Shown here: one piece after another, positions 4,508 through 20,442 of the stretch
How positions within the stretch are numbered: the stretch's first letter is position 1
Layout: every line of letters begins with the position of its first letter
Virus record (IMG/VR): IMGVR_UViG_3300030060_002217
Location: 1-20,442 of that record
Direction: 5' to 3' (one strand)
DNA from: a virus
DNA: 20,442 nucleotides
Program-made: the position numbers and the translations under genes
The notes under the pieces: generated by a model
Databases searched by the model: none
Told to the model about the DNA's origin: nothing
What the model saw: only the letters and a program-made list of their open reading frames with translations

Positions 4508-4662
4508 GCTTTCTCAGTGTATGCCGCAATCAGGTCGGCTTTAAACTGTTCCATCAATTGCTCAAAGCGCTTCTGTTCAGCAAGCTCTTGCTGCTGGTGG
4601 TTGAAGTCGCGCGTGGGTTTAACGTGCACACTGCTGCGCACACAAATAGGTTTGTTCATCAT
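4504..4662 (-). CDS. Unknown small early protein
   Basis: 52 residues, starting MMNKPICVRSSVHVKPTRDF at TAATG; a second ATG follows directly, so the protein may be one residue shorter. The second half is a charged helix (QQQELAEQKRFEQLMEQFKA). It overlaps the next gene as ATGA. No family recognised. Confidence 0.6.
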   Translation of the reverse strand: MMNKPICVRSSVHVKPTRDFNHQQQELAEQKRFEQLMEQFKADLIAAYTEKA

Positions 4663-4916
4663 TATTGGTTTTCGAGATGTTCCCATATCTCTTGTTCAAT
4701 ACGTTCGTGGTTGTAGTCCAGCAGGTTGTCATCAGCACGGGTAATATCAATGCGTTCAAAGCTGGTGTGATTCTTTTGCCACAGCACCACGCGAATGATG
4801 CGCACGGTGGCGGGGTGGCTTGGTGAGATGTGCGTGGCTTCCTCGCCAGCTTCGACCTCAAAGGTTACGACCATCTCAAGTCCGTCGTCAAGTTTGAGCA
4901 GGATTTGGTCTTCCAT
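4662..4916 (-). CDS. Unknown early protein, first gene of the operon
   Basis: 84 residues from ATG in MEDQILLKLDDGLEMVVTFE; an ATG 27 bases upstream would lie inside the promoter candidate. It is an acidic protein with beta-like N-terminal half (MVVTFEVEAGEEA, PATVRIIRVVLWQKN) and an acidic helical end (HERIEQEIWEHLENQ). Not recognised. Being first after the early promoter suggests an abundant, early product. Its stop overlaps the next start as TAATG. Confidence 0.7.
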   Translation of the reverse strand: MEDQILLKLDDGLEMVVTFEVEAGEEATHISPSHPATVRIIRVVLWQKNHTSFERIDITRADDNLLDYNHERIEQEIWEHLENQ

Positions 4917-4973
4917 TGTTTCGTTTCTTGTGCAAGTGTACAACTATTTACACAACTGTACAAGAAAAAGCAC
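4917..4973 (-). promoter_or_regulatory. Early promoter/operator candidate with TGTACAA repeats
   Basis: Between the terminator and the first early gene, the plus strand carries TGTACAA twice (4937-4943 and 4957-4963), starts exactly 20 bp apart, so on one face of the helix. On the minus strand these give TTG (4963-4961), 20 bases, then TACACTTG (4940-4933). This differs by one base from the Bacteroidota -7 box TAnnTTTG. TTGTAC-N17-TACACT also fits a weak sigma70-type promoter. A near-palindrome, CTTGTGCAAG, overlaps. The repeated TGTACA palindromes look like regulator sites. The regulator is unknown. Confidence 0.55.
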
Positions 4974-5005
4974 AAAAAAAGCGGCACCCCCTGCAAGGAT
5001 GCCGC
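4974..5005 (-). terminator. Strong rho-independent terminator between late and early blocks
   Basis: On the minus strand GCGGCATCC, a 7-base loop, then GGGTGCCGC forms a 9-bp stem with one G-U pair, directly followed by seven T residues. It closes the structural/lysis block and separates it from the early genes that begin about 60 bases further on in the same direction. The plus-strand reading has no T-run, so it works only for minus-strand transcription. Confidence 0.9.
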
Positions 5006-5026
5006 CCCAAAAACCAAACCTCAATG

Positions 5027-5060
5027 AAAAAAAAGGTCTACTTGTCCTCCTTGGACTAAG
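5027..5060 (-). terminator. Weak hairpin with T-run after the late operon
   Basis: On the minus strand CTTAGTCC, loop AAGGA, GGACAAG gives a 7-bp stem with one bulge, then TAGACC and eight T residues. The T-run is a few bases away from the stem, so this is at most a weak or helper terminator upstream of the strong one. Confidence 0.35.
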
Positions 5061-5070
5061 CAAATATAGG

Positions 5071-5241
5071 TTATTTCCGCCCTCTTTTGCTATCACCAAA
5101 CACTACGGCGTTAATGATGCGCTTTAGAATGTCAATAACCTTGTCATCCTTCTCAGATGCAGTAAGTGCAGTAATTGTTCCTGCAGCAGTTAAAATGGCC
5201 AGTGCAATCTCGGCCCAGTAAAGTAATAAAATCTCTTTCAT
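5071..5241 (-). CDS. Small membrane protein, holin-like
   Basis: 56 residues: one N-terminal hydrophobic helix (ILLLYWAEIALAILTAAGTI), the segment TALTASEKDDK, then an amphipathic helix (VIDILKRIINAVVF) and a basic tail (GDSKRGRK). It starts 1 base after the phosphoesterase stop (TAATATG). Small proteins with this layout, including a T-x-KDDK motif after the helix, occur near lysis genes of environmental phages and are often called putative holins. The call rests on layout and location. Confidence 0.7.
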   Translation of the reverse strand: MKEILLLYWAEIALAILTAAGTITALTASEKDDKVIDILKRIINAVVFGDSKRGRK

Positions 5242-5242
5242 A

Positions 5243-6079
5243 TTATTGTGCTTCTTCAACCTTCCAAAATGGTAGGTCTTTCTTTGAGTTGTGCAAGGTA
5301 ACAAACCAACCGCCAAGGCGTGGCGTGTTGAAGCCTTTCTCGGTCGCCCAACCTGCAAAGCGGTCGCCGAGCATCTTGTAGCTGCCGAGCTGCAAATGGT
5401 GCACGCTGTCTTGATACAAGCGACCAAAGCGGCTGATGCGGTCCGACGTCACAGGCAGGTGCCACTTCTGATGTGTATGTCCGCGCACAATCAGGCTGGC
5501 GTCCTTAAACTGCATCTGGTCAATGTCAACACGGAGCACACCTTTAGAGCGTGGAGCGTTGCCGCCCATGCCGTGATGATAATGTACAAAGGTTGAGCTG
5601 CGGCGCTTGCCTTGTTGGAATATTTGCATCCACAACCAGCCGCTGTACCCTGCCACGGTGATGTTGCCGCCGTTCTTGTTTACGATGTACGCCACGCGGT
5701 CAAGCGGGCTGGTGTGCATACGCTTCTCTATGTTCGTCTCGTGATTTCCACGGCAGAAAAACTTGATGACGTCTTTGTACTTGTGCAGGAACTCCGCACT
5801 GTCTTCAATGACGTCGTCTAGATATGTGATGCTTTTGTACTCAGGTCGGATGTCGCTGTAGCTGGACCGCGGATCATACTTGCCACCCATCAGGTCGAAC
5901 CAGTCGCCAAAGATGAACACGGGCGTTTTCGTGCGCTTGGCTTCGTCAAGGTGCCTGCGCAGCATAACCCGGTCGCATCTTACGCTGTCATAGTGGACGT
6001 CAGAAATAAACAGCATACGCTGCGGTTGCTTGTCCAGCTTTACAGCGTGGACGGTGCGGCTGATTTGTTCAATCTTCAT
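5243..6079 (-). CDS. Calcineurin-like metallophosphoesterase
   Basis: 278 residues from ATG 6079, which overlaps the endolysin stop as ATGA; an in-frame ATG at 6091 is a weaker choice. All metal-binding motifs are present in order: SDVH (Asp27, His29), GD (Asp59), GNHE (111-114), His in VHYHHG (166-169) and GHTH (200-203). It should therefore be an active two-metal phosphoesterase. Family members hydrolyse nucleic acids, nucleotides or phosphoproteins; the substrate here cannot be told. The position between the endolysin and another small membrane protein is unusual for a DNA-processing enzyme. Confidence 0.88.
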   Translation of the reverse strand: MKIEQISRTVHAVKLDKQPQRMLFISDVHYDSVRCDRVMLRRHLDEAKRTKTPVFIFGDWFDLMGGKYDPRSSYSDIRPEYKSITYLDDVIEDSAEFLHKYKDVIKFFCRGNHETNIEKRMHTSPLDRVAYIVNKNGGNITVAGYSGWLWMQIFQQGKRRSSTFVHYHHGMGGNAPRSKGVLRVDIDQMQFKDASLIVRGHTHQKWHLPVTSDRISRFGRLYQDSVHHLQLGSYKMLGDRFAGWATEKGFNTPRLGGWFVTLHNSKKDLPFWKVEEAQ

Positions 6080-6435
6080 GTGTATAACCAAACAACGTCA
6101 GCGTCCTTGCTGGGGTCGTCGTCAACGTGTATGAATGTGCTTGCAATACCGATGCGATTAAAGCCTGCATCTATTAGCCCGCCGATGATGTAAGCACGAC
6201 TGCGACTATCTACGCAGTGTATGTCCGCAGCAAAACCTTTGAGGTGTGCGCTGTCTTTCTTGCCACCTACCTTACGGTTGTGTTCAGGCGTCCTATATCC
6301 TGAGTTGATACGGAACGGAATGCCGGCAAGGTGTCGCGCCTTATCAAGCATTGATAAAAATACCTCGTCCATCATTTGTTCGCCGCTGCCGATCGCGTCG
6401 GGGCTGTCGAACTCATGATAGTTGAAGTATCTCAT
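6076..6435 (-). CDS. M15-family peptidase, endolysin
   Basis: 119 residues. It shows the peptidase M15A signature: SGYRTPEHN at 45-53, zinc ligands His64 and Asp71 in SAHLKGFAAD (S.H..G.A.D), and His103 in FIHVDDD. These enzymes cut peptide crosslinks of peptidoglycan (D-Ala-D-Ala carboxypeptidase or L,D-endopeptidase type) and act as phage endolysins. No signal peptide is present, so export would depend on a holin. The small membrane protein directly upstream is the obvious candidate. It overlaps the following phosphoesterase start as ATGA. Confidence 0.9.
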   Translation of the reverse strand: MRYFNYHEFDSPDAIGSGEQMMDEVFLSMLDKARHLAGIPFRINSGYRTPEHNRKVGGKKDSAHLKGFAADIHCVDSRSRAYIIGGLIDAGFNRIGIASTFIHVDDDPSKDADVVWLYT

Positions 6436-6554
6436 AATAGGGCTATCGAGATGGCTGCAATCAGTATTATGACATCGGCAAGATCACCGCGGCCATATTG
6501 CTTGGCCTTGTAAATGATGTTTGCCACCACAGTTGCTAAGATAATATAAATCAT
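6432..6554 (-). CDS. Tiny two-helix membrane protein, holin candidate
   Basis: 40 residues: a hydrophobic helix (MIYIILATVVANIIY), a basic turn (KAKQYGRGD), and a second hydrophobic helix (ADVIILIAAISIALL). It starts 4 bases after the distal tail stop, with TGAGGAAATG giving a rare SD-like GAGG, although very close to the ATG. Its stop overlaps the endolysin start as ATGA. Two helices, tiny size and coupling to an endolysin fit a small holin. It is shorter than most known holins, so a lysis-accessory role is also possible. Confidence 0.65.
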   Translation of the reverse strand: MIYIILATVVANIIYKAKQYGRGDLADVIILIAAISIALL

Positions 6555-6558
6555 TTCC

Positions 6559-8946
6559 TCAGTTTACAACAAACCAATTGCCACCACTGCACAGCAATTG
6601 TACCGCCTCATACGCTGTGTTCAAGTCAAAACTTGCGGCGCCGTTTATCGTCGCGCTTGTATCGCCGGACGCAGGTACGATGCTCACAATGTTGCTTGAG
6701 CTCACAGTGCCGTTGGCTACGATTGTAATAATTGCACCGTCAAAGTTTGCGACTGCTGGCAGCTGTATTGTACCTGTGCCTGCACCACCTACATAGTTGA
6801 CAGTTGCCGCTTGTTGCACTTCTGTCAAGGCTGTGGTTCTACCGCCTTGCGTGGCAATTTCAGTCACTGGTTGCTGTAGAAAACGCTGGAATATGTTCGG
6901 CGGTATGTCGCCATCATCAGGCGTGAACGTGTTTTGCAAGTCATATACTGGCTCACTATCATCAATTGGTTCATTGTCATCAATTACCTGTGGCGCTGGT
7001 GTGCTTACGTTTGTGTCATCACTATTGATGTGAAACGCTTCGTACTCTGTCTGCACGGCGCGCGCCATAAACGTAGTTTCAAACGGCAAAAAATTCCGTG
7101 TTGAAAATAATAGTGCGTGGAACGGGCTTACAAACGCCTTGTAAAAGCTGCCGCGCTTTACTCGCGTGCTTGCGTTTTGTCCTGCGATTACTTCTTGCAC
7201 ACCAAGTTTATGGATAGTAACTGTAGCCGAGCTGTTTGCAAAGCTCGCAAAGCTGTCAATCGGTTGAGCTGGGGAGCTGTTGTTTTCGTAAATGTTACGG
7301 TAATCTTCAAAGGCACTGGAACCTATCACTACCTCATCTTGTATTAGCGTTTCTTGATTGTTCGCTGTGGTAACCGCCTCATACACTACGCGGTCACCAT
7401 TTGTTGCGTTGCCGTTGACAATGTGCATACCAAACTTTTCTAGTTTGCCGTATGCGTTTGTGCCTGTTACATCTGTAATAAGGTTACCGTCATGATCATA
7501 ACCTTGGGCATTGACTGTTATTGTTACACCTGTTTGTGCACTTGTAAGGGCTGCTAAATCAATCAGAACTGGTTGATTGTATTGTGCAATACTGACAAAA
7601 CCTTGTGGCGTAAAGGTCATGTTATACACAAGGCCGTCGTTTCTATCTATGTACGCTGGCGTAGGTGTCACAGCAAAAAAGAAATGGCCAGCACTTCCTG
7701 ACCACGCTGGCGCGCTGAAGGTCATTGTGTCAAGAGTGTAAGCGTCTGATGCATAACCCACATTCATTGTGTTGGGTCCAAAGGTTACCGCGTTATTATA
7801 GTACAAGCTGCCAACCTTGATTTGCATCTTTAAAATAATCCGTGCAGGCACGTCGTCACCTGTACTTGTACCGTCACCATCGAATGAATGATTGTAACGA
7901 AACCGCATGCGGAACACCGTACCGTTGTCATACAGTAGGTTGTTGTCGGTTATGTTAGTACCTAAAGCAATCTGGTTGTTGATTGGATTAAGGAACTGCG
8001 TTTCGGGACCAACTACAGGCAGGTTCGCGTCCGTTCGCCAAGTACGCTGCACCTTGTTAAGTGGTGGTAAGAACGTAGTCACGCCGCCGCGCATGCGCTC
8101 CATATCGGTGTCGACTGTTAGCTGTGTATCTGTTGCTGTAGCCGATCCACTAATCGTTCCCGCTTTGGTGACTGTAAACAAGTTGACTGTGGTGTTGTTA
8201 ATCACCGCGCCTACAGGGATAAAGTAGAAACAACCTTCATGCAGAAACACGCGAGCGTTGAAGGTGATAGCAAAGTTTTTGAGCACGGTAAAGCAGTCCA
8301 TGCCCTGCGCGTTGCCCGCGTCGTCAAGGTTGTAAAATGCTGCGTGTCCAACCTGTAGTTCAATTAAGGCGTTCGCGCTTAAAAACGTCGTAGGCTTAAA
8401 ATCGTTGGCATATTTTAAAAACACATCGCCGCTTGCAAAGATGTGCAAGGCGCGCGTCTTGTTCAGCAAGTTGGTGAGGTGTGCTGCTATGGTTTCCTGT
8501 CCTGTGTAGAACGTGCCGCTGTTATCGTATGGAATGTTTTTAAGACTTCCTAAGTCGTCCACCGCTGTCATGGTGTTCTGAATTGGGAACGCTTCGTCCT
8601 GCAGCACGACCTGTTCATGCAGTAGCACGCCAGTCCAAAACAAAGTGTTGGCGCCGTCAGGGTCTTTGAATATGCTAACTGTAAAGTCAGCGTCCTCGCT
8701 TGTAGCTAACGCCGTGAGGAAAGTGGTGTGCGCTGCTACGTTCTCAATCAACGTAAACGTGACCTCGCTGCCGATGATTGGCTGCATGCGGTCCTCGTTG
8801 TTACCGCTGTAGCGTAAGGTAAAGCCGTCGGCGCCAAGGTTAAACTCGGTCGAGCTGCCTACGAATCCATTTTGGTGGATGTTTAGTTTGTATGCAGTGC
8901 CAAGATCGTCTGTAAACTCGGCGTGTAATCGTATTGCATCAGCCAT
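6559..8946 (-). CDS. Large distal tail / baseplate protein
   Basis: 795 residues, first gene after the tape measure, where distal tail, hub or tail-tip proteins usually lie. The N-terminal half (RYSGNNEDRMQPIIGSEVTF, DFTVSIFKDPDGANTLFWTG, VLQDEAFPIQNTMTAVDDLG followed by SLKNIPY) resembles a large tail protein family I associate with Bacteroidota phages. The middle is beta-rich. Residues 706-795 form a separate small beta domain (TIQLPAVANFDGAIITIVAN ... AYEAVQLLCSGGNWFVVN) like those ending phage fibres and contacting receptors. A low-complexity acidic stretch (VIDDNEPIDDSEPVYDL) precedes it. No peptidase or hydrolase motif was recognised. Confidence 0.78.
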   Translation of the reverse strand: MADAIRLHAEFTDDLGTAYKLNIHQNGFVGSSTEFNLGADGFTLRYSGNNEDRMQPIIGSEVTFTLIENVAAHTTFLTALATSEDADFTVSIFKDPDGANTLFWTGVLLHEQVVLQDEAFPIQNTMTAVDDLGSLKNIPYDNSGTFYTGQETIAAHLTNLLNKTRALHIFASGDVFLKYANDFKPTTFLSANALIELQVGHAAFYNLDDAGNAQGMDCFTVLKNFAITFNARVFLHEGCFYFIPVGAVINNTTVNLFTVTKAGTISGSATATDTQLTVDTDMERMRGGVTTFLPPLNKVQRTWRTDANLPVVGPETQFLNPINNQIALGTNITDNNLLYDNGTVFRMRFRYNHSFDGDGTSTGDDVPARIILKMQIKVGSLYYNNAVTFGPNTMNVGYASDAYTLDTMTFSAPAWSGSAGHFFFAVTPTPAYIDRNDGLVYNMTFTPQGFVSIAQYNQPVLIDLAALTSAQTGVTITVNAQGYDHDGNLITDVTGTNAYGKLEKFGMHIVNGNATNGDRVVYEAVTTANNQETLIQDEVVIGSSAFEDYRNIYENNSSPAQPIDSFASFANSSATVTIHKLGVQEVIAGQNASTRVKRGSFYKAFVSPFHALLFSTRNFLPFETTFMARAVQTEYEAFHINSDDTNVSTPAPQVIDDNEPIDDSEPVYDLQNTFTPDDGDIPPNIFQRFLQQPVTEIATQGGRTTALTEVQQAATVNYVGGAGTGTIQLPAVANFDGAIITIVANGTVSSSNIVSIVPASGDTSATINGAASFDLNTAYEAVQLLCSGGNWFVVN

Positions 8947-10890
8947 TTAGAATCCTCTTACGCGGTTACGGTCAATTGCGTTGCGCTCGCTCGTCAGCAA
9001 GATGTCACGTCCTGAAATCTTACCAGTCACCTGCACGTGCTGCCCACCCATCATACTCTGCAACTTGTCTAGTGGTGCGACAACTTCAGGATTGACACTG
9101 CTGGTGCCTGAGCCTTCGCCTACCATTGCAAGTGATGCGCCTGTGAACAGTCCGCCGTTTGCCATCATAGGTAAGCCAAAGCCCCCAGCAAGAAACTTAC
9201 CAAGGCCGCCCTTGACTAAGCCTGCCCCCGGCATTAATAATGAAAGCACCATAAACTGTGCTATCAGTGACGCCAGCTGCATAGCCAATCGCTTGATCAT
9301 GTCCAGCATGACCTGTTCAAACGTAGCCGTTCCGCTTGCAATTTGTTGAAAGGCGCTATCTACAAAACCTGCAACGGCCTGCGCCATGGCGTCTAAGCGG
9401 TTCTGTACTGCTGTACTTGCTGCAATGACCGCGTCAATGTCTTCGTCATCTACGATGTCTTCAGGCATGTCAATGTCAACGATGTTCAGCGCAGCGGGCA
9501 CAGTCACTGCGGGTTCACCTGCGCCACCTCCTCCACCTGCAACACCTCCTGCACTAGGCAACAAGTTGGTCAAGCCTCCTAACGTCTTTATAGATTGTGC
9601 TACACCTTCTTCACTAAACAACTCTATAGGGTCGCGTTGCAGTTCATCCTCGATGCCTGTGCGTATGTTCTCTGCCGCCTTTCTGCCAAACTCTGCAGTG
9701 CGTTCTGCTGCATCGCTAAATGCTGTACGGACCAGCTCAGGAATCGCAGCAAAGTCACCCGTAAATACGGCCTTTATAATTGAACCAAGATCTTTGAACC
9801 TCTCAATGACGTCATTGACAGCGAACGCAAAGAAGTCAAACACTGTCAGCACGGTCCCTTTAATTGCACCAATGATGCCGCGCACAAGGCTTGACTCATT
9901 GAAAAGGGTAATGAAGAAGTTAATCACCTTTGTCAATGGCCCTGCAATCTCATCGGCAAAGGTGACAATCGCAATGCCCAACCCAACAATGGCGCCAACC
10001 ACTAAGCCAATCGGTGAAAGCATAGCGGGCAAAATCATAAGCAACGGACCCAAAGCAGCAGCAACACCTGCTGCAATAAGTGCAAACTTTTTTGTTTCCG
10101 GTGACAGCCTTGTTATTGCTTGCATCAAACCGACAAAGCCGTCTAGTATATCTTTTACAACAGGCATTAAATCCTGCGCTAAAGCCGCGCCTGCAAGTTT
10201 TAGGTTGTCCAGCGCCGTGCTAAATTTACCTGCTGCCGTTTGGCTCAGGCGTTCCATAGCGCCAGCAGCAAAACCCCCTTCCGTTGCAAAGCCTTTCAGC
10301 GTTGCATTAAACTCTTCAACGCTTACAGCACCTGCACCGAGCTTGTCGGCTGGTAAGCCTGTCGCGTCAGCCAAGGCTGTAAAGATTGGTATGCCGCGCT
10401 CTGCAAGTTGGTTCAAGTTCTCTAGCTCCACCTTTCCCTTGGCATTCACCTTAGCGAAGATGGCAGCTATCTCGTCAATCGGTTGGCCGCTAGTTGCTGC
10501 AATGTCGCCAAGGAACTGCAGTTGATCATTCACTTCATTGATGCCCGTGCCTGATGCAATGAGCTGCCGCGCTGACTTGGCTACAGCTTCTATTTGAAAA
10601 GGCGTCTTTGCTGTGAACTCATTCAAGTTCTTCATCATGTCTGCCGCCTCTTTCGCTCCACCAGTCAAGCTAACAAAGCTCGTCTGCATAGCTTCTAAAT
10701 CTGCAGCTGATTTTACTGCAGCTAAACCAAGGCCAGCGATGGGCATAGTCAACGACCGCGTCATTGATTGACCCAGTCTTTTCGTATTCTTGCCAAAGGT
10801 CTGCATCTTGCGCATGGACTTGCCAAGCGCCTTGTCAAAGTCGCGCGTTGTTGCGCCTATCGTTACAATTAGATCGTTCAGCTTTGCCAT
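8947..10890 (-). CDS. Tape measure protein
   Basis: 647 residues. The N-terminal part shows the tape measure domain: RSLTMPIAGLGLAAVKSAAD, then MQTSFVSLTGGAKEA, FTAKTPFQIEAVAKSARQLI and FAKVNAKGKVELENLNQLAE. Residues about 265-310 carry hydrophobic segments (FALIAAGVAAALGPLLMILP, GLVVGAIVGLGIAIVTF). A glycine-rich break (GGVAGGGGGAGE) lies near 450. The C-terminus, MANGGLFTGASLAMVGEG and NPEVVAPLDKL, is common in such proteins. They set tail length; at about 0.15 nm per residue this would give a tail near 97 nm (an estimate). Its stop directly abuts the next start. Confidence 0.93.
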   Translation of the reverse strand: MAKLNDLIVTIGATTRDFDKALGKSMRKMQTFGKNTKRLGQSMTRSLTMPIAGLGLAAVKSAADLEAMQTSFVSLTGGAKEAADMMKNLNEFTAKTPFQIEAVAKSARQLIASGTGINEVNDQLQFLGDIAATSGQPIDEIAAIFAKVNAKGKVELENLNQLAERGIPIFTALADATGLPADKLGAGAVSVEEFNATLKGFATEGGFAAGAMERLSQTAAGKFSTALDNLKLAGAALAQDLMPVVKDILDGFVGLMQAITRLSPETKKFALIAAGVAAALGPLLMILPAMLSPIGLVVGAIVGLGIAIVTFADEIAGPLTKVINFFITLFNESSLVRGIIGAIKGTVLTVFDFFAFAVNDVIERFKDLGSIIKAVFTGDFAAIPELVRTAFSDAAERTAEFGRKAAENIRTGIEDELQRDPIELFSEEGVAQSIKTLGGLTNLLPSAGGVAGGGGGAGEPAVTVPAALNIVDIDMPEDIVDDEDIDAVIAASTAVQNRLDAMAQAVAGFVDSAFQQIASGTATFEQVMLDMIKRLAMQLASLIAQFMVLSLLMPGAGLVKGGLGKFLAGGFGLPMMANGGLFTGASLAMVGEGSGTSSVNPEVVAPLDKLQSMMGGQHVQVTGKISGRDILLTSERNAIDRNRVRGF

Positions 10891-11222: not shown

Positions 11223-11500
11223 TTTTTTTGGTCGCTGTATTCACCAAGCACGTCAAAGCATTGTGTGACGTGTGCAAGCGTTATGTGCTCCTCAAACTCC
11301 TGCAGCTCCATGTCAAAGTCGACACCTTCAAAGTTGCAACCGCATTCGACACCAACGTAACAAAGAAAAGCGCAAGCGTCGGCAGACAGCTTGGAAGGAT
11401 CAGACAAACTAAACACGTTGACCTTGGCCTTGCGTTCAAACTTTTTTAGGGCCTTCATCGAGTACCGCACAGGGTACTCGTTGCCGTTGATTTCTATCAT
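11216..11500 (-). CDS. Tail assembly chaperone, short form (G-type)
   Basis: 94 residues, starting MIEINGNEYPVRYSMKALKKFE, the usual opening of small tail assembly chaperones (ingkeYpl.f.mgal..fe). The rest is a helical bundle with a C-terminal FDVLGEYSDQKKA. These chaperones coat the tape measure protein before tube assembly and are lost from the mature tail. The gene lies between tail tube and tape measure as expected. Its last codons run over eight A residues, where ribosomes can slip to make the longer form. Confidence 0.85.
   Translation of the reverse strand: MIEINGNEYPVRYSMKALKKFERKAKVNVFSLSDPSKLSADACAFLCYVGVECGCNFEGVDFDMELQEFEEHITLAHVTQCFDVLGEYSDQKKA
11222..11228 (-). promoter_or_regulatory. 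-1 ribosomal frameshift site, A AAA AAA then G
   Basis: Minus-strand codons CAA AAA AAA GCG TAG place the heptamer A-AAA-AAA in the correct phase for tandem Lys slippage, two codons before the short form's stop. The -1 frame is open from this point to the stop at 10878. The residues read after the slip (SVDGNEKPVGWQDVIRMGMG) continue straight into the conserved tail-chaperone C-terminal domain, whose start lies upstream of the only ATG (11174). This is the classic G/GT arrangement of siphophages. Confidence 0.85.
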
Positions 11501-11910
11501 TAAGCTACAGTTTCGTCAATCAAGCCAGTCAGTTCAAAGGTGGCCGAATACGTTGCTGTATCTTCTGTGCCGCCTGATTGCTCCAAGCTAGTAACAAAAC
11601 CGCTGGCTGAAAAACTTGCCTCACCTGTCGCTAGTGAAGACCTGCTAAATTTTAAAACCAATGCAGTGCGCGATTCCCATGCTCCATATAAATCTAAGAA
11701 GTCTTTGTTTGAACCGTCAACGTAATCAATCAAACCGCTGACGCTCATGCTGCCACTGCGCAAGCCGGGCAGAAGCTCACGAAACGCCGCGCTGTCCTTT
11801 GTAGTTATGTCAATAGTTTCTGCGTTCAAGGTCAATGTCACGTCAGTTGCTGCTGCAATCAAAGTGCTGCCTATGTATACGCCTAAATCGGTGCCGTTAA
11901 ATATCGCCAT
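11500..11910 (-). CDS. Major tail tube protein (TP901-1-like)
   Basis: 136 residues, starting MAIFNGTDLGVYIGSTLIAA. The family hallmarks are the N-terminal G.dl.vyvg...va..t..tl, then ETIDITTKDSAAFRELLPGLRSGSMSVSGLIDY, where the I(D/E)(T/I)T(T/S)KDS...W/F.E.LPG.rs.s.s..g segment is characteristic, and a C-terminal SGGTEDTATYSATFELTG. These proteins stack as rings to form the tube of siphophage tails. It is followed at once (sharing one base) by the tail assembly chaperone, as in other long-tailed phages. Confidence 0.92.
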   Translation of the reverse strand: MAIFNGTDLGVYIGSTLIAAATDVTLTLNAETIDITTKDSAAFRELLPGLRSGSMSVSGLIDYVDGSNKDFLDLYGAWESRTALVLKFSRSSLATGEASFSASGFVTSLEQSGGTEDTATYSATFELTGLIDETVA

Positions 11911-12096: not shown

Positions 12097-12309
12097 TCAA
12101 ATGCCTTTCTTTGCCAGCAAAATCTTGAGTTCATTCACAGCCTCAAGCAGCGTGTCCAGTTTTTTGGCCATGTCGTTCTCGCGTTTCTCAAGGTTGATGA
12201 TGCGCGACTTAAGCACCGTGACCTCTTGGTTAATCTTTGTCCATGCTGCGATGCCACCACCGAGCAACGCGATGAACTCAAATAGCATCGCCGCCGTTAT
12301 CTGTTCCAT
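12097..12309 (-). CDS. Small membrane-anchored coiled-coil protein
   Basis: 70 residues. Residues 5-23 (TAAMLFEFIALLGGGIAAW) form one hydrophobic helix. The rest is a charged heptad-like helix (VTVLKSRIINLEKREND, KKLDTLLEAVNELKILLAKK), predicted to be a coiled coil. Small phage proteins with an N-terminal membrane helix and C-terminal coiled coil are often annotated as holin-like or lysis accessory, but this one lies among tail genes rather than with the endolysin. It starts 2 bases after the previous stop. The function is not established. Confidence 0.75.
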   Translation of the reverse strand: MEQITAAMLFEFIALLGGGIAAWTKINQEVTVLKSRIINLEKRENDMAKKLDTLLEAVNELKILLAKKGI

Positions 12310-12311
12310 GC

Positions 12312-12713
12312 TTAAATATCGTCTATTTCAAACCAACCATTTTCAACCATATAGTCTTGATCCCGCACCGTCGTCGTGCTCGGTATGATGGCTGCAAATG
12401 GAAACTCGTCGCTGTTGAGCGCATACGATTGCAATGCAAACCGCTCGTCCGCTGTCAGCTCAGGAAAGAGGCTAACCAGCTTCTCTAGCGTTGCCTGTTC
12501 ATGTACAGGTATAACGTAATCAGTATTTACCTTTAAGGCGTGTTGTACGCCGTCAGGATGCACAATTACGCCGAATACGGTTCCGTCCTTTTGGTACGGC
12601 TCCTGCACGGCCAGCGGTGTTGTGATGTTGTAGAGCTCTCGCGTTATGGACTTGGCGCGTTTCTCGCTTGTCAATGTGCCTTCGGTTAAAACGATGATGT
12701 ACTGCTGCGCCAT
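12312..12713 (-). CDS. Unknown protein after the fibre-fused terminator
   Basis: 133 residues, not recognised. It starts at ATG in TAATG, overlapping the fibre stop by one base. The N-terminus (MAQQYIIVLTEG) is beta-like, with a middle SLFPELTADERFALQSYALN and an acidic C-terminus ending NGWFEIDDI. It has no membrane segment or signal peptide. Its tight coupling to the fibre gene suggests a partner such as a fibre chaperone or a neck component, but this is position-based inference only. Confidence 0.75.
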   Translation of the reverse strand: MAQQYIIVLTEGTLTSEKRAKSITRELYNITTPLAVQEPYQKDGTVFGVIVHPDGVQHALKVNTDYVIPVHEQATLEKLVSLFPELTADERFALQSYALNSDEFPFAAIIPSTTTVRDQDYMVENGWFEIDDI

Positions 12714-14770
12714 TAGAAGATGCTGTAAAAGGTGTTAATGTCAGTTTCGATGCCACTAATATTGCCTGCGCTGCGCTGATTGCTTGGCCATATGATAATT
12801 TCCTGCGCCATGTGCTTGGCTATACTGCCGCCTTGGCTTGCAAGAATGTCTATTGCTGTTCCTGGCGTATAGGCCGTAGCAGATGTATTGGGGTCTACGG
12901 TTTCGGTTTGATTAACTCGGCCAACAATGTTGCCAGATCCAGCAGCGTCGTAGACGCCAGCATACAAAGCCTGTGAGGTTGACCGTGTACCAATAGTTGC
13001 AAAAGTGCCTGCAAAAATTCTCAGGTTATTTCCAGCAAAGTAGAATGCAGGCTTGAGTCCAGCACTTTCGCTGCCAAAAATGTATTGGGTGCCTTCGTCA
13101 TTATGATTGAATACCGCAGTCGCTGTGAACCCATCAGCAACTGAAAAGCTAGCATTAAAAAACCCAGTGCCATCTGGAAAAAGTGCTGGCTTATTGTTAT
13201 CCGTCACCACGCCCGTAGTCCCGTCGTAAATCTTTGGCTGATTTGCCGTTGAGCTTTGAGTCGCGTCGTTCCCGTTGCCTGACTGGTCCATCCAAGTTAC
13301 TACAAATCCATCAGAACTTCCGCAGAAGGTAGCCAAGGCAGTAGTGTCTAACACGTTGCTGCTGAACCCAATTGTTTGCTCCGTGTTATCGCTAGACCGT
13401 CGGACGCGCACTGCTTCTGTTTCGCCTGTTCGAAGTTGTCGCAGCGAATAAGCCGCAGTTGCACCTGTGTAAGTGTCCAACAGGCCGGTAAATGCGCTTG
13501 CCTCCTCCCACGTCTGTATAAGCGTGAACGGTGGCGTGCCGTAGGTATTGCCGTCTATAAAACCTTCAAATGTAGAAGTAGTGGCAGAATAAGCGGTATC
13601 GTTTGCAAAGGTGTGAATTAAGGTAAAGTCACTGAGAGCATCACTACTTGCAATGAAGCCTGCCTTGTGATAGATTTTGCGTTGAATCACTTTGCCTGCT
13701 GTTGGGGTGTCGCTCTGCGCGTCAAGAAAGATACCATCCCCATCCGCCTTAACAGTAAAAACACGCTCCACAAATGGCGAGGATAGCTTGTTGTTTTCTG
13801 CTTCATCTTCAAAACGGTTAGTAAAGTTGGCTAACGCTTTGAAGGAACTTGACGTTGTGTCAAATATTAACGCTTGGTTTGCAGTAGGCGTGCTGCTTAT
13901 AGTGACGTCAGTTAGATTGTTTAGTTGGGTTGGTACTGCACTAGTGTCCGCCTTGGCATTTAAAGCGGTTTGCGTGGCCGTGCTGATTGGCTTGTCGGCA
14001 TCGCTCGTATTGTTTACGTTGCTCAAATCCGCGCTGTTGGCCTTCGCGTTCAACGCCGTTTGCGTAGCTGAACTTACAGGCTTGTCGGCGTCGCTTGTGT
14101 TGTCCACGTTTGCCAACCCTACGTCCGACTTGCTTACGTTGTCATTGACAAATTGGCTGCCATCAAAAACAAGAGATTCACGATTTGAAGGTGTAGTAAT
14201 GCTTGTATCGGATAAACCTGTTAAAGTGTTACTGCCTGTGGCATCGTCTGCCGCTTCCCAGTTGCCGCTCGTGCTATTGTATGCGATCAGCTGGCCGTTT
14301 GATACGCCGTCAACGTTGACGTCAGAAAGTTGACCAAGCTGCGCACCCGTGACTGGTGTGCCTTGTGCAATAGTAAAGTCGTCGCGTTTTATGCGAAACG
14401 TAAAGGTTAGAACTTGACTGTATCGGCGTGGGTCGTATTCAATATTTATATCAACGTCGTTAAATTGTATACTTTCTACATTGACACCGTTGTAAGTTCC
14501 GCTCACACGATCTAAAGCGCCGCGCACTTTTTCGCCTACATCAGCAGCTTGATCGTAAGTGTCTGCATAACAGATAAATTCAAAACGCACCTCATCAAGT
14601 TCTGACGGTCCGTCGTGCGTGTCGTCAGGGTCAACACTTTGTAATTGATAAACAATAAAAGGTGTTTCCGCTTCTTGCTCTGCAATCTCAGGAAAGATGC
14701 GAGTTCCCACCAAAGTTGTCACGTTGCTGTTGGTGCTCAAAATGCCGTATGCCGCCTTACCTGTGTTCAT
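12713..14770 (-). CDS. Tail terminator (DUF3168) fused to fibre repeats and a carbohydrate-binding-like domain
   Basis: 685 residues in one frame. Residues 1-130 form a complete DUF3168-type tail terminator (MNTGKAAYGILSTNSNVTTL, RIFPEIAEQEAETPFIVYQL, YADTYDQAADVGEKVRGALD), normally a stand-alone protein of about 130 residues capping the tail next to the head. It then continues into fibre-type sequence: LSD repeats at about 148, 186 and 286 (LSDVNVDGVSNGQLIAYNS) and two N(V)NNTSDADKP repeats at 221 and 251. Residues about 430-685 resemble the arabinofuranosidase-B/LamG-like domain seen in flavobacterial and phage proteins (AYSLRQLRTG, VRVRRSSDNTEQTIGF, VTWMDQSGNGNDAT). No catalytic activity can be claimed. 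The ring location would place these arms at the neck. The next gene starts as TAATG on its stop. Confidence 0.85.
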   Translation of the reverse strand: MNTGKAAYGILSTNSNVTTLVGTRIFPEIAEQEAETPFIVYQLQSVDPDDTHDGPSELDEVRFEFICYADTYDQAADVGEKVRGALDRVSGTYNGVNVESIQFNDVDINIEYDPRRYSQVLTFTFRIKRDDFTIAQGTPVTGAQLGQLSDVNVDGVSNGQLIAYNSTSGNWEAADDATGSNTLTGLSDTSITTPSNRESLVFDGSQFVNDNVSKSDVGLANVDNTSDADKPVSSATQTALNAKANSADLSNVNNTSDADKPISTATQTALNAKADTSAVPTQLNNLTDVTISSTPTANQALIFDTTSSSFKALANFTNRFEDEAENNKLSSPFVERVFTVKADGDGIFLDAQSDTPTAGKVIQRKIYHKAGFIASSDALSDFTLIHTFANDTAYSATTSTFEGFIDGNTYGTPPFTLIQTWEEASAFTGLLDTYTGATAAYSLRQLRTGETEAVRVRRSSDNTEQTIGFSSNVLDTTALATFCGSSDGFVVTWMDQSGNGNDATQSSTANQPKIYDGTTGVVTDNNKPALFPDGTGFFNASFSVADGFTATAVFNHNDEGTQYIFGSESAGLKPAFYFAGNNLRIFAGTFATIGTRSTSQALYAGVYDAAGSGNIVGRVNQTETVDPNTSATAYTPGTAIDILASQGGSIAKHMAQEIIIWPSNQRSAGNISGIETDINTFYSIF
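13931..14110 (-). repeat. Two diverged 90-bp tandem repeats in the fibre segment
   Basis: Residues 221-250 and 251-280 of the tail terminator-fibre protein repeat in tandem. Both contain N-V-(D/N)-NTSDADKP-(V/I)-S-(S/T)-ATQTALNAKA. The DNA is diverged at many third positions, so this is an old, protein-level repeat rather than a recent duplication. Such repeats are typical of trimeric phage fibre shafts. Confidence 0.8.
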
Positions 14771-15282
14771 TTTATACGTGTTGAGTTTACTTTCTTTGCA
14801 ATTTCCTTGTGGTACTGCTTGCGCATTTTGTGAAATGCTTTGGGTGCCGCTGCTGTTATAGACTTGAAAAATACGTCTTTGTTGCGGTTGCTGCCCTTTA
14901 TAAACTGATCATCTCCTTCTACAATGTTCGCAAACCAACCGTCACCGTTTACGGGTGCGCGGCGCCCTACTCGCGGTCCTACCCAGTACGCATTTTGCTG
15001 GTTGTTAATGAGCCACACCTTGACGGACCTGCGCAAGGTACCGACTGGAATATCCATTTTGTAAGGCTTGCCAAATGTTTTACTGCGCTTTGTGTGTCCA
15101 CGTCGCAAGCGTATTGTTTCACGCGCATCCTCGATGTTGCCAATCATCTCTTTCTTAATTACGTTGCCAGCCGTGCGGTGAATTTTGCGCTGCGTCTTGT
15201 TGTCTTTGATGTGCTTGGCAATTTCTTTGAACTGCTTTTCAAGGGGCGCGGTGTGTGCAAATACTGTGCGTTTAGCTGGCAT
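14767..15282 (-). CDS. Neck/tail completion protein, HK97 gp10-like
   Basis: 171 residues, strongly basic. The helical N-terminus (LEKQFKEIAKHIKDNKTQRK), then TGTL-type GTLRRSVKVWL, the VGPRVGRRAPVNGDGWFANI segment and the helical C-terminus (FFKSITAAAPKAFHKMRKQYHKEI) are the pattern of the HK97 gp10 family, where W(f/y)A..vE.G and p..F+.a......i are usual. It lies between the joining protein and the tail terminator, which is the standard gene order. It overlaps the next gene as ATGA. No alternative function is likely from context. Confidence 0.85.
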   Translation of the reverse strand: MPAKRTVFAHTAPLEKQFKEIAKHIKDNKTQRKIHRTAGNVIKKEMIGNIEDARETIRLRRGHTKRSKTFGKPYKMDIPVGTLRRSVKVWLINNQQNAYWVGPRVGRRAPVNGDGWFANIVEGDDQFIKGSNRNKDVFFKSITAAAPKAFHKMRKQYHKEIAKKVNSTRIK

Positions 15283-15610
15283 TTGTTCCCGTTATTTGAC
15301 AAAACAAAATAAGCTGGTCTTGTCGGCCAACCTCCTCAATGCCTTGAATGTTGTAATACTTGCCGTCGTACAGCACGCGGTCGTCAGCCTTGATGCCTCG
15401 GCTGTCGGTACTGCTGCGGATTTTCAAACGCACGCGTTGCACAGGCATGTCCTGATTGGTACTAATGCGCTCTGTTATACCTTCTGTCTTCATCAATTCC
15501 GCCCATACAGTAATTAGCGTGCTGTAGTCTAGCCGCCGCTCGCCGTAAACGTTTGTCGTAGTCGTGTAACGCTGTATCGTAATACGTCGGTCGCTCTTGC
15601 CTATCCTCAT
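15272..15610 (-). CDS. Head-tail joining protein (SPP1 gp16-like)
   Basis: 112 residues. The N-terminus MRIGKSDRRITIQRYTTTTN and the middle TVWAELMKTEG, VRLKIRSS and VLYDGKYYNIQGIEEVGRQ match the Phage_H_T_join family: RItiq+ at the start, W A.v....g, and a C-terminal yNI.gi.e.gR. These small beta-barrel proteins form the stopper or closure ring between connector and tail. The gene overlaps the connector by four bases and the following neck gene by eleven bases, as expected for a coupled head-completion cassette. Confidence 0.88.
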   Translation of the reverse strand: MRIGKSDRRITIQRYTTTTNVYGERRLDYSTLITVWAELMKTEGITERISTNQDMPVQRVRLKIRSSTDSRGIKADDRVLYDGKYYNIQGIEEVGRQDQLILFCQITGTNAS

Positions 15611-16243: not shown

Positions 16244-19078
16244 TTATCCGTTAGCTCCCAAGATAGTTGCCTGAGCAAAGACCATAGCACCGAGTGACTC
16301 AGCGCGTCGGACTTTTGCGTCAAAGAAAGTATCAACAACAATCTTAACGTTGCCCTCTGACAACTGGCTGAATGGATCAATAGTTACATCCAATCCGCCC
16401 CAGTTGGCGTAGAACAAGTCAGTCCAATCACCGTAGTACAAGAAGCGCAAAGCTGCACCGTTTGCACCAAATGGTTCTGCTTCTGCGTCGCTTAGGAATT
16501 CATTTGCATTGACAGCAGTAGCGTCAATTGACGGCACTGTTCCGCTTGACAAAACATTGTATCCCATCATTTGCCCGTTCTCAACCAAAGCGCTCACGTT
16601 TGAAACATTCTCGATTCCCATCAAGAAAGCAAAATCAGACGGGTGAGCAACAAACGCTGTATTGTTCTCTGCACCGTTTGCGGTGATTGTGCTCCACAAG
16701 TCGCGGACATTGTCAGCAGTGATCGCTGGAATGTCGTTGTCACCTGTTTCAGCACGGCCTACAACAGTACCCGTCTTACCTGCCAAAGCAGTAGCACCAC
16801 CAACACCGTGGATAGAGTTCAAAGCAATCTTGTCCTGAGCGATGGCAATAGCTCGACCAAAGTCTGCAGCAATTACGTTGCTCATGTTGCCGCTTGTTTG
16901 GTTCATGGCCTCCTTGGTCACGATCATCTGCTGCGCGATGCGCTGAGGTGACAAAGTAGCTGAACCCATAGAGCCAGTGTTGCTGCTCACTGCAGCACCT
17001 TCTGCAGGTGTGGAAGCGGCATCTGTTGGAAGCGATGGCATTTTGATGTCACCGACAAAGCCGTTAAGCTGTGTGGCACCAGTAGCTGCAAGCAAAGAGT
17101 TTGCACGCAAAGCACCAACCAACTCAGTAACCTCTGTGGCTACAGTTGTAACTGCGTCATTTACGCCTGATTGTCCTGAGTCAACGCCGTAAACGTTACG
17201 AGCTTCAACCAACATGCTCTGAGGAATCGCAAAATTTCCGCGAATCTCAAGGCCGCGAGAAGATGCTTCGTGTCGTGCTTCTTCCAATGCTTCCTTCTCT
17301 AAACCTGTCAACACCTGACCGTTTGACAATTCGCGCAAAGCCTTACCAAAGTCAAACTGTGCGTTTGCTTTGATAGCTTCCTTGTCGCTTCGTACAACCG
17401 CATCGGCTGCAACGGCACGTGCCTTCAGGCGCTGTTCGTTTTTTGCGAGTGCGTCGCGCTGCTGTTCTGCAGCTTCGAGCTTTGCGTGGATGTCTTGCGT
17501 CTCTTCTAATTCTTCAGAAGTCAACGCGCGCTCCTCGGTTTCTGCGAGGGCGTTGATGTTAGCCAACTTGTCTTCCAGCTGGGAAATGTAGCGGGCCGCA
17601 TCATTTGAGTTGCGTAAGTTCATAATCTTAAATTGTTTTGCGGGCTTACTTTCCGCTGTTTGTTCAAAGGTACGCACTTCCTGCTTTTCAGGTTGCGCCT
17701 CCGAAATCGTTTGAGTTTCTTCTACTGGCTCAGGCTCTTGCATGGCCATCTGTCGCGCTGCCACCGTAGTGGTTGGGTAGGCTGGATATGTGACCGGGCT
17801 GACGTCCAACAGGCGTGCCACCTTGAGCACGCGCCGCACGCTGCGGTCCTCGCTAAATTCCTGCTCACCAATCGTAAAGGCAAAGCTCGACTGCGTAATG
17901 TCGCCACGCTTGATGAGCTTGTACATGTCACGACCGTCTTGCGTGTCGGCTAATGCTGCACGGTATTTAAGTCCGTTCTCATCAACGCTGAGTTCCAGCG
18001 TGCCGTTCGTGGTGCGTGCCATCGGTGCGCCGTCGTGGTTAAGCAGCAGCCGAACGTCGTCTTCCATAACGTCCTCAAATGCACCGCGTGCAATCTCCTC
18101 CTTAAAATATCCAAGGTCTGTGCGTTGCTCAAAGTTGGCAGCGTAGCCCTCGATAACAAGCGAGTCGTCACCTGCAGCTCGCACCTCTGATGTGCGCAGC
18201 TCTACGTTGTCGCCATACTTCGCACGTATCTCTTGCTCGTGCTTTTCTGCAGAACGGTATGGCTTGTCTTCGTCTTTGCCTTTTCCGTTAGTAGCTACAT
18301 CGTGAGATTCACACGCCATGTAAACTGTTTGCCCTTCAAACTCATGCGTGTGGTACCCTTCGCACCCTTGACGCTTTGCTTGCTCTAGAGCTTCTGCTAT
18401 TGTGCTGAATACGGGTTCACCGCTTATTGTGCCAACGCGCTCACGCTGCGCGGCTTCTGTATTGATGTCGCTCATCTTTTCTTCTTTTTCTTTTGATCGT
18501 AGCGGGTGACCTTTTGGGAACAGGTCAGTATCGTGTTTGCCGCCTCTAAACTTTTCGTTTTTTAAAGCGTAAAGGTAGCTATTCACGCGAGCCATGGCCC
18601 ACTGCTCAGGCGTCTTTACTGATGGCCGCACGCTACCCGGATTTGTTTTGTACGCACCAACGCCTCGGTCGTACACCTTTTCTAGCATTGGCACAGTAGC
18701 TTTCTTATGTGCTGCGCTAACGCTTTCGTTGTGTTCCTTTACTTTATTTTTAAGAGCTTTTGCACGGTTGCGCTGCTGGCGTTCAGTCATCTCCTCCACT
18801 TTTTTTTTTGCCCAAGGCAGCATTGACTTGCCACCCCAAGCGTCATACATCAAACCGCCACAACCTTCGTCATAAGGTACGTCAGCATTCTGTGCGTGGC
18901 GGCTCAAAAAACTATAGACCCGCTTAATAGTGTCGTCGCTCAAGCTCTCACGGCTGGCAATTTGACTGGCGCGCTGCTTGCCCACTGGCGTGCCACAGTT
19001 GCCCCACCCGTTTTCCTCCACGTATTTAAGGACACGCTTGGCGTTATTAACTGCAGCCTGTGGATAATCCTTAGACAC
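16244..19078 (-). CDS. Polyprotein: small phage domains + prohead protease + major capsid protein
   Basis: One uninterrupted frame of 944 codons from GTG 19078. Domains (numbered from that GTG): 5-95, a small domain with VGKQRASQIASRESLS and YDEGCGGLMYDAWGGK; 130-190, a DUF5824-like segment (YDRGVGAYKTNPGSVRPSV, WAMARVNSYLYAL); 238-259, GCEGYHTHEFEGQTVYMACE; 305-440, an S78/HK97 prohead protease with His348 in LLLNHD and Ser397/398 in TQSSFAF; 440-485, an acidic proline-rich linker; 486-944, an HK97-fold capsid protein with a helical, charged delta-like N-terminus (486-570). ATG codons at 18475 (residue 202, after a run of A and G) and 17623 (residue 486, MNLRNSND) could be internal starts for free protease and free capsid. 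An ATG at 19168 would overlap the portal by 98 bases and is unlikely. Protease and capsid calls are firm; the true translation starts are not. Confidence 0.9.
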   Translation of the reverse strand: MSKDYPQAAVNNAKRVLKYVEENGWGNCGTPVGKQRASQIASRESLSDDTIKRVYSFLSRHAQNADVPYDEGCGGLMYDAWGGKSMLPWAKKKVEEMTERQQRNRAKALKNKVKEHNESVSAAHKKATVPMLEKVYDRGVGAYKTNPGSVRPSVKTPEQWAMARVNSYLYALKNEKFRGGKHDTDLFPKGHPLRSKEKEEKMSDINTEAAQRERVGTISGEPVFSTIAEALEQAKRQGCEGYHTHEFEGQTVYMACESHDVATNGKGKDEDKPYRSAEKHEQEIRAKYGDNVELRTSEVRAAGDDSLVIEGYAANFEQRTDLGYFKEEIARGAFEDVMEDDVRLLLNHDGAPMARTTNGTLELSVDENGLKYRAALADTQDGRDMYKLIKRGDITQSSFAFTIGEQEFSEDRSVRRVLKVARLLDVSPVTYPAYPTTTVAARQMAMQEPEPVEETQTISEAQPEKQEVRTFEQTAESKPAKQFKIMNLRNSNDAARYISQLEDKLANINALAETEERALTSEELEETQDIHAKLEAAEQQRDALAKNEQRLKARAVAADAVVRSDKEAIKANAQFDFGKALRELSNGQVLTGLEKEALEEARHEASSRGLEIRGNFAIPQSMLVEARNVYGVDSGQSGVNDAVTTVATEVTELVGALRANSLLAATGATQLNGFVGDIKMPSLPTDAASTPAEGAAVSSNTGSMGSATLSPQRIAQQMIVTKEAMNQTSGNMSNVIAADFGRAIAIAQDKIALNSIHGVGGATALAGKTGTVVGRAETGDNDIPAITADNVRDLWSTITANGAENNTAFVAHPSDFAFLMGIENVSNVSALVENGQMMGYNVLSSGTVPSIDATAVNANEFLSDAEAEPFGANGAALRFLYYGDWTDLFYANWGGLDVTIDPFSQLSEGNVKIVVDTFFDAKVRRAESLGAMVFAQATILGANG

Positions 19079-20258
19079 CGCTGCTAAGTTTTGTGCTGTA
19101 CTCGTCGAGCTTGTCGAGCGCAATCTGATTGACTTGGACCATGTGAGCGTCGCCACCTGCCACGCCATTCATGTCCTCAGTGCGTCGTGCTTCATTAATG
19201 CTCATGATGCCCGCCTTCACCAGCGTGTCGTAATACTGCGCGCGGCTCACGCTGTCGCCTCGCAAAAGGTCTGCAAGGTCAAAGCGTGTGAAGTGTGTTA
19301 AGCGCTCGTCAGGTGCGATGAGCTTACAATTCATCTCTTGCTCTATCTGCCGAGTCCATGGTACGATTGTGTACTTAGCAAACTGTATGGCCTGCTGCTC
19401 TGTGTTGCTGTACGTCACATTCGACTGCACACCTACAAGGCTTGGCGGTACGCCAAAGATTCGGCATATCTCTTGATTCAAAAAGTCGCGCTGCTCGTTC
19501 AGGCTTGCGTTTTCAGGATCAACCGCAATGCGGTCATACTTAAAACCAAAGGGTAACAGTTTGGTGCCCAACTGGTCACCGCTGTTGTTCCAGCTGTCTT
19601 TGATGATGTCAATCTGTTCTTTCTTGAGTGGCTCATTGCTAGACAAGATTCCTGTCATGTTGCCTGAGCTACCAAAGAACTCAGCAGCAAAGTCTTGCGC
19701 TGCCTTAGCAAGTCCAAGCATCTCGCGGTGTAGTTCTATGGGGCTTTGACCGTACAGGTTGCAGACGCGCAACATGTCAGCGTGCATGTAGATGCCGTGG
19801 TCCTTGACCTCGTACATGACCTCACCGTCAACCATCTTTTCCTTTACGGACTTAGGGTTGACAATACAAAGCTCGTAAGGGTCGCCATTCGGCAGGCGCT
19901 TGATGATGGCATACGCCTTGCCATAGATTAGGATGTTGGCCACGTAGGTCTGCCAAAAGTCGTATGCAGTATACCCCTCCTCTGCCTCTACGCTGATGAG
20001 GTCTTGAATAGTATGACCAATGCTTACCTGCACGCCGTTTTCGGTGCGGCGCATGACGTCGAGGTGCAACTGCGCAATCGTGCTGCTGATGCGCTGGACG
20101 CAAGCGTAAACTGTGGACAAGCCCATGGCTGACTCGGTGTCTACAAAAGCACCCGACCGCGTGCTGATACCGCGCAAGTGCGATGCGAAACTGTGGTGAC
20201 CTGTGTACGCTACTTGGTAGCCGTCACGCTTGAAAATTCTTTGGAACCAGTTAGCCAT
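19071..20258 (-). CDS. Portal protein, HK97 gp3 family
   Basis: Encodes 395 residues, the usual size for HK97-type portals, which form the dodecameric ring at one capsid vertex through which DNA passes and to which the tail attaches. Recognisable segments are the N-terminal SAMGLSTVYACVQRISSTIA (cf. Al..saV.acvr.ia..ia), GYTAYDFWQTYVANILIYGKAY, a central GNMTGILSS, and the signature DFLNQEICRIFGVPPSLVG with the following YSNTEQQ. The start is ATG in MANWFQRIFKRDG. An in-frame ATG 33 bases upstream lies inside the terminase gene and is less likely. The 3' end overlaps the next frame by 8 bases if that gene starts at GTG (GTGTCTAA). Confidence 0.95.
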   Translation of the reverse strand: MANWFQRIFKRDGYQVAYTGHHSFASHLRGISTRSGAFVDTESAMGLSTVYACVQRISSTIAQLHLDVMRRTENGVQVSIGHTIQDLISVEAEEGYTAYDFWQTYVANILIYGKAYAIIKRLPNGDPYELCIVNPKSVKEKMVDGEVMYEVKDHGIYMHADMLRVCNLYGQSPIELHREMLGLAKAAQDFAAEFFGSSGNMTGILSSNEPLKKEQIDIIKDSWNNSGDQLGTKLLPFGFKYDRIAVDPENASLNEQRDFLNQEICRIFGVPPSLVGVQSNVTYSNTEQQAIQFAKYTIVPWTRQIEQEMNCKLIAPDERLTHFTRFDLADLLRGDSVSRAQYYDTLVKAGIMSINEARRTEDMNGVAGGDAHMVQVNQIALDKLDEYSTKLSSGV

Positions 20259-20271
20259 TGCGCGCAAGTTA
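20259..20271 (-). promoter_or_regulatory. TAACTTGC motif directly before the portal start
   Basis: The short gap between terminase and portal reads TAACTTGCGCGCA before ATG, and its TAA is the terminase stop. The ten bases CGTAACTTGC recur exactly before the small gene starting at 12064, and a close relative, TATCTTGCACCC, precedes the connector gene. A TTTTG lies 17 bases upstream of this copy. It could be a Bacteroidota-like -7 element with a very short leader, or a translation-initiation signal. The function is inferred. Confidence 0.35.
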
Positions 20272-20442
20272 CGAAAGGTTGATAATCTCAAAATAGCCCT
20301 CGTCTTCTGCTGGGCTTTTCATGTGTTCGCCGATGCCCATAATCATTGCTACGATCGGGTCAATCTTGCCGCCGCTCTTTTGTTTGTCTGCTTTGATGTT
20401 GCCCGCGGGGTCCATCTTTAGCTCGACGTTGCCGAGTGCCCA
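20269..20442 (-). CDS. Terminase large subunit, C-terminal end (partial)
   Basis: The last 57 codons of a gene that enters from beyond the window edge, ending in TAA. The residues GNIKADKQKSGGKIDPIVA followed by MIMGIG match the conserved C-terminal end of HK97-type large terminases, the ATP-driven DNA packaging motor. There, a segment after the nuclease domain reads roughly GNIKxDKxKSxxKIDPIVAxxMA. Only this tail is visible, so neither the ATPase nor the nuclease motifs can be checked. The portal gene starts 10 bases downstream, which is the standard terminase-portal order and supports the call. The remainder of the gene and the small terminase should lie just outside the window. Confidence 0.9.
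   Translation of the reverse strand, partial: WALGNVELKMDPAGNIKADKQKSGGKIDPIVAMIMGIGEHMKSPAEDEGYFEIINLS

Follow-up and report, generated by a model that had tools for sequence, protein, structure and literature searches.

A tail terminator continuing into a fibre with a hypervariable tip at the neck locus of uncultured siphophages

The window analyzed in this study is a virus record of 20,442 nucleotides, whose minus strand carries the structural operon of a siphophage. The following genes were assigned, given in operon order:

19071-20291, minus strand: portal
16244-19168, minus strand: protease-capsid ORF (974 aa)
between the protease-capsid ORF and Hc1: connector gene
15272..15610, minus strand: head-closure gene Hc1 (PF05521, E 4e-15; phrog_25)
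14767..15282, minus strand: Neck1/HK97-gp10-like gene, upstream of the fused gene (weak PF04883 and phrog_5 matches; gene order conserved)
12713-14770, minus strand: terminator-fibre gene, one uninterrupted frame of 685 aa
12312..12713, minus strand: P2, the 133-aa partner gene, TAATG-coupled to the terminator-fibre gene
12097-12309, minus strand: 70-aa gene, between P2 and tube
after the 70-aa gene and before the tube: 55-aa gene
11500..11910, minus strand: major tail tube (PF06199, phrog_1407)
between tube and tape measure: two small chaperone-type genes
8947-10890, operon gene: tape measure
6559-8946, operon gene: probable distal tail protein (795 aa)

The 974-aa ORF unites a DUF5824-matching N-terminal part, an S78 prohead protease and the major capsid protein in one frame and overlaps the portal gene. 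The product of the 70-aa gene has a hydrophobic N-terminus and a probable coiled coil; the gene is kept in the relatives L004 and L041.

Within the terminator-fibre gene, the following parts were distinguished (all on the minus strand):

14381..14770, residues 1-130: tail-terminator domain, PF11367/DUF3168-like
14138..14380, residues 131-211: linker and first shaft segment, GTPVTGAQLGQLSDVxVxGVSNGQ... (identity profile)
13925..14137, residues 212-282: shaft repeats, VGLxNVDNTSDADKPVSxATQTALNAKA (PHROG fibre/minor-tail matches)
13481..13915, residues 286-430: middle domain, NRFEDEAENN...GTPPFTLIQTWEE (moves together with the tip)
13181..13480, residues 431-530: conserved tip part, GH54 AbfB-like (HMM against PDB; PF09206 in homologues)
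12806..13180, residues 531-655: hypervariable tip part (identity profile, alignment)
12716..12805, residues 656-685: conserved tip C-terminus, QEIIxYxSDQSxNRTxIExNINTFYSIY (alignment)

The first-pass annotation had assigned residues 1-130 to the tail terminators, and sequence, fold and gene position support the 685-aa protein as the predicted tail terminator of this phage. Residues 8-127 matched PF11367 (Tail_completion_gp17; SPP1 gp17) with an E-value of 2e-14 and 54.2 bits at a curated cut-off of 24.5. Among the PHROG tail-terminator families, the N-domain matched phrog_347 (E 3e-17), 123, 176 and 78, of which phrog_347 is the nearest profile and is itself 394 positions long. The AlphaFold2 monomer prediction of the fused protein, with 35 homologues as input, was confident mainly for residues 1-130 (mean pLDDT of about 76), and most of the chain beyond residue 130 received no confident model. 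The N-domain model does resemble the tail terminators: below E 1e-3, Foldseek returned almost only members of this class from the PDB, including those of phiXacJX1, RcGTA, Mu, T5 (p142), Bxb1 and lambda (gpU; E 1e-5), and VIA-align gave a Z score of 16.0 to the RcGTA terminator (6tba) over 126 residues. A search of the full 685-aa protein against the PDB sequences gave no match. The N-terminal 130 residues are thus like SPP1 gp17, lambda gpU, T5 p142 and the RcGTA terminator in family, fold and gene position, whereas the known siphophage terminators stop at about 120-160 aa and the window protein goes on to 685 aa.

The placement of the fusion in the neck gene slot, which had also been proposed, was confirmed by its terminator position between Neck1 and tube and by the conservation of this position in relatives. 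The order portal-MCP-connector-Hc1-Ne1-[terminator-fibre]-P2-tube-TMP is kept in L004, L035, L058 and L050 as well as in a Pirellulaceae MAG contig. The fused gene occupies the same slot in the distant relatives L035, L058 and L050, in which the terminator is about 44% identical, and in the Planctomycete MAG contig L146. Inspection of the ORFs and searches with PHROG and Pfam profiles revealed no other terminator candidate between Neck1 and tube in the window.

Downstream of the terminator domain, the joint segment of residues 131-211 was found by its region identity profile to be conserved between divergent terminators. The fibre shaft repeats that the annotation had read in the same frame were recovered in residues 212-282, which matched many fibre and minor-tail PHROGs with two stretches in each. 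The repeats were also found by tblastn in phages of Arthrobacter, Gordonia and Tsukamurella, within minor tail genes. The shaft is probably trimeric. The middle domain accompanies the tip in both of the terminator families described below.

The tip comprises residues 431-685 (255 aa). An HMM of the tip matched the GH54 AbfB structures 6sxr/1wd3 in the PDB with an E-value of 8e-6, the aligned part being positions 9-77 of the 257-position profile. In the window copy, residues 431-510 matched the first part of ArabFuran-catal (PF09206) just under the cut-off (E 5e-5, 23 bits), and the same family was matched in 8 of 15 homologues, with 9e-12 as the best value. Of the AbfB/LamG-like domain originally proposed, the AbfB likeness could therefore be retained, and LamG (Laminin_G_3) was matched only in the relative L037. 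The GH54 likeness spans only about 80 residues of the tip. The region in which the GH54 catalytic acidic pair would fall is hypervariable and unaligned, so the pair could not be traced, which makes a binding role of the tip more likely than an enzymatic one. Between the window copy and its homologues, the median identity of residues 531-655 was 12%, with conserved flanks on either side.

To determine how widespread the fusion is, relatives were collected by IMG/VR scans, and 72 distinct ORFs with a terminator domain and a complete 3′-end were counted. An extension of at least 200 aa (range 253-1089 aa) was found in 61 of these, and the remaining 11 were stand-alone terminators of about 130 aa, mostly Bacteroides-phage-like, nearly all of which are directly followed by the tube gene. 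The fused gene takes the slot of the stand-alone terminator of these gut relatives. The annotation had described the fusion for a single virus; the fusion itself stands, and among the sequences collected it is the rule across the clade, with a counterpart in a second terminator family. In the terminator-domain tree (135 columns, 81 rows), the stand-alone forms make up one clade plus the long-branch L063, which is compatible with either gain or loss of the fibre. All carriers of the fusion are uncultured virus sequences, with no isolate among them. Planctomycetota were considered as hosts and not adopted: the fusion is carried by one MAG contig, and both of the other matches that were inspected have a terminator ORF of 132 aa.

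A separate terminator could also be produced from the same gene by an internal start or a −1 frameshift, and this was rejected. Codons 101-215 of the window copy contain no ATG, GTG or TTG, the only slippery heptamer lies at codon 269, and neither a conserved start codon nor a conserved slippery heptamer was present across 84 distinct junction sequences. The stop or frameshift at the junction that would have spoken against the fusion was likewise absent from the independently assembled relatives.

The start codon of P2 overlaps the stop codon of the terminator-fibre gene (TAATG). Among the fused ORFs with enough downstream sequence, P2 is the next gene in 82 of the 85 that carry the middle/tip module (3 without), and in 0 of the 17 that lack it. 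L212 and L043 have another anchor, and there too P2 lies behind the tip. As P2 tracks the type of tip (82/3 compared to 0/17), it is a partner of the tip and not of the terminator. The earlier proposal of a chaperone or partner was thereby borne out in its partner part, and P2 may be a dedicated tip partner that acts as a folding chaperone or tip cap. More than 300 copies of P2 were found in IMG/VR, and searches of PHROGs, Pfam, PDB sequences and phage records for relatives gave no match; P2 is tentatively regarded as a new family. Most of the fused ORFs without the tip are followed by a gene for a separate protein that has a short common N-terminal segment (MAIDKVNGTAFDNIA..., MGEISGVPTADINNVDGFF...) and a varied remainder, which is LamG-like, propeller-like or discoidin-like by eye only. 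Such proteins are encoded at L041:6931-7884, L102:5496-6290 and L218:4950-6146.

Some of the fibres carry a second N-domain (MITFNNIVERF...). It was matched in 84 ORFs, which run past this domain into a fibre wherever the contig extends far enough, and this second terminator family bears the same cassette of shaft, tip and P2. Its AlphaFold2 model (pLDDT 78) had lambda gpU as best fold match, and all 29 matches below E 1e-3 were terminator, collar or neck chains. A relation by sequence between the two domains (TermN and TermN2) was rejected, as hhalign detected none, though both fold alike. Upstream of P2, 22 distinct anchors belong to the first type, 21 to the second type and 6 to others. In L212, a stand-alone 153-aa homologue of the second family (974-1435) adjoins the Neck1 gene, and the AbfB-like tip and P2 are found at the end of a 1537-aa protein (3391-8402) just before the tape measure gene. 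Two terminator families therefore bear the cassette, and in other places it is joined to different proteins.

The identities of anchor and middle domain were discordant in both directions, which shows recombination between anchor and cassette. In L041 and L044, the terminator is 98-99% identical to that of the window, but past about residue 205 the fibre is unrelated. Between L035 and L026, the terminators are 46% and the middle domains 93% identical. An anchor identity below 50% together with a middle-domain identity above 75% was observed in 30 of 406 pairs, and the reverse pattern (anchor above 90%, middle domain below 35%) in 5 of 406.

Several further arrangements of the cassette were found. 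In L142 (8001-16526), a terminator fibre of the second type and P2 are followed directly by window-type tube, chaperone genes and tape measure, which may mean that recombination took place at the cassette or that the contig is chimeric. In L043 (4285-10150), a different phage type, the same middle/tip module occurs in two fibre genes, which lie two genes after the portal and have P2 between them. An unfused arrangement was present in L177, L188 and L201, where the second-type terminator ORF (371-734 aa) precedes a distinct fibre ORF, which bears the tip and is followed by P2.

Terminators with extensions already exist. A review mentions terminators of larger size that bear additional domains, for instance for the sheath and not for fibres (PMC11784142), and the 394-position phrog_347 profile is another case. 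The protein A0A8S5QQ35 (385 aa, uncultured siphovirus ct6oU4, BFVD) resembles the window protein by fold in having a terminator-like N-domain in a longer chain, but it is shorter, is annotated only as a bacterial repeat domain and shows no fibre repeats. In the open literature searched (subscription papers and preprints lay outside its scope), neither a terminator-fibre fusion nor its exchange was found to be described.

The neck passage structures (NPS) of the lactococcal 936 and TP901-1 phages are neck fibres with terminal carbohydrate-binding modules and a variable C-terminus on a constant N-terminus (PMC6669499, PMC10747895). The predicted neck fibre of the window shares the variable C-terminus, and its tip, which is similar to a glycosidase sandwich, may correspond to the carbohydrate-binding module. 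In contrast, the NPS is a separate, dispensable protein with a BppU-like N-domain that is thought to sit on an adaptor, and the N-domain found here is a tail terminator instead of a BppU-like collar domain. The Anabaena myophage A-1(L) also possesses neck fibres with a distal CBM; these are gp82 trimers held non-covalently on a 15-mer ring (gp5/gp82) and encoded by separate genes (PMC10966104). Since the comparable neck fibres use other anchors, the terminator-fibre would work like an NPS without being one.

Taken together, the protein is best explained as an adhesion fibre that is anchored at the neck and has a hypervariable tip, produced by extension of the terminator at its C-terminus, to which a probability of roughly 0.72 is assigned. 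A hexameric ring of the usual kind would be assembled from the terminator domains on the tube end, between stopper and tail tube. The C-termini would emerge on its outer side and continue as the shaft, whose chains would associate into trimers and end in the AbfB/concanavalin-like tip. An exit on the outside is indicated by analogy to phiCD508 gp53, a terminator with a C-terminal linker that reaches outside and holds the sheath (PMC11948020). The hypervariable face of the tip may bind a glycan on the surface of the host or of the surrounding matrix, and P2, made by stop-start coupling, would serve the tip as its chaperone or cap. In this explanation, the terminator acts as a socket, and phages exchange the shaft-tip-partner cassettes, which would alter the target of the neck fibre. 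The mismatch between six terminator chains and a probably trimeric shaft counts against this explanation and could be accommodated by two trimers or a mixed arrangement. The six separate arms, the binding of host polysaccharide or mucus and the reversible adsorption proposed in the annotation are hypothetical.

This symmetry problem would vanish if the chain were cleaved around residues 130-140, perhaps by the S78 protease that the phage itself encodes, leaving a normal ring and a free fibre attached elsewhere. That such fused precursors exist is seen from the protease-capsid ORF of the same phage, and L177, L188 and L201 encode the fibre beside the terminator ORF. Processing of a polyprotein is nevertheless considered rather improbable: residues 131-210 are kept between divergent terminators, as a structural joint would be, and the free fibres of relatives bear an N-terminal segment of their own. 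It is still harder to reconcile with the data that the N-domain is a mere attachment domain derived from a terminator, with the fibre on tail tip or tube and the true terminator encoded by another gene. L212 shows that a different tail protein can bear this tip-P2 cassette, but the window offers no second candidate in the slot, and there the fused gene substitutes for the stand-alone terminator of the gut relatives.

Neck whiskers without adhesive function, which would act fibritin-like as an assembly guide or sensor, are unlikely, yet deserve some weight. The T4 neck fibres have been proposed as guides of the long tail fibres, and in A-1(L) the CBM that ends the neck fibre fails to bind the host, so that a tip lectin need not imply host adsorption (PMC10966104). 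However, the hypervariable tip with its conserved flanks and the exchange with other kinds of tip genes look like selection on binding specificity. An assembly artefact joining two genes has a negligible probability: near-identical common cassettes can yield chimeric contigs, of which L142 may be one, but 61 distinct complete ORFs carry the fusion in independent assemblies, their frames continuous and their gene order conserved, which rules out such an error at the junction.

Beyond the neck-anchored fibre itself, the terminator ring may represent a general socket for an exchangeable adhesion system, although this wider reading falls somewhat short of even odds. At least two terminator families would serve as the socket, the shaft-tip cassette would spread horizontally together with P2, and the receptor-binding variety of the phage would lie at the neck. 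The adhesion of siphophages has been described almost entirely from the tail tip; here, surface-binding arms are probably located at the neck and not solely at the tail tip. A covalent link joins the most conserved ring protein of the neck to the most variable adhesin, both in a widespread group of uncultured phages and across two terminator families. This raises the structural question of how a fibre that is probably trimeric can be held by six terminator chains. The pairing of P2 and tip provides a genetic handle by which neck adhesins could be sought in metagenomes.

A homologous AbfB-like tip gene is also found in an isolate, the Aphanizomenon phage CL131. In its gp025-gp027 region, gp026 (phrog_10356, E 4e-62) is located downstream of the Neck1 gene, but it is not fused to a recognisable terminator. 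The similarity of CL131 gp027 to P2 was not significant, and it was rejected as a homologue. The phrog_10356 profile combines a head-closure-like N-part with an AbfB-like later part, which suggests that a head-closure protein is also fused to this tip somewhere.
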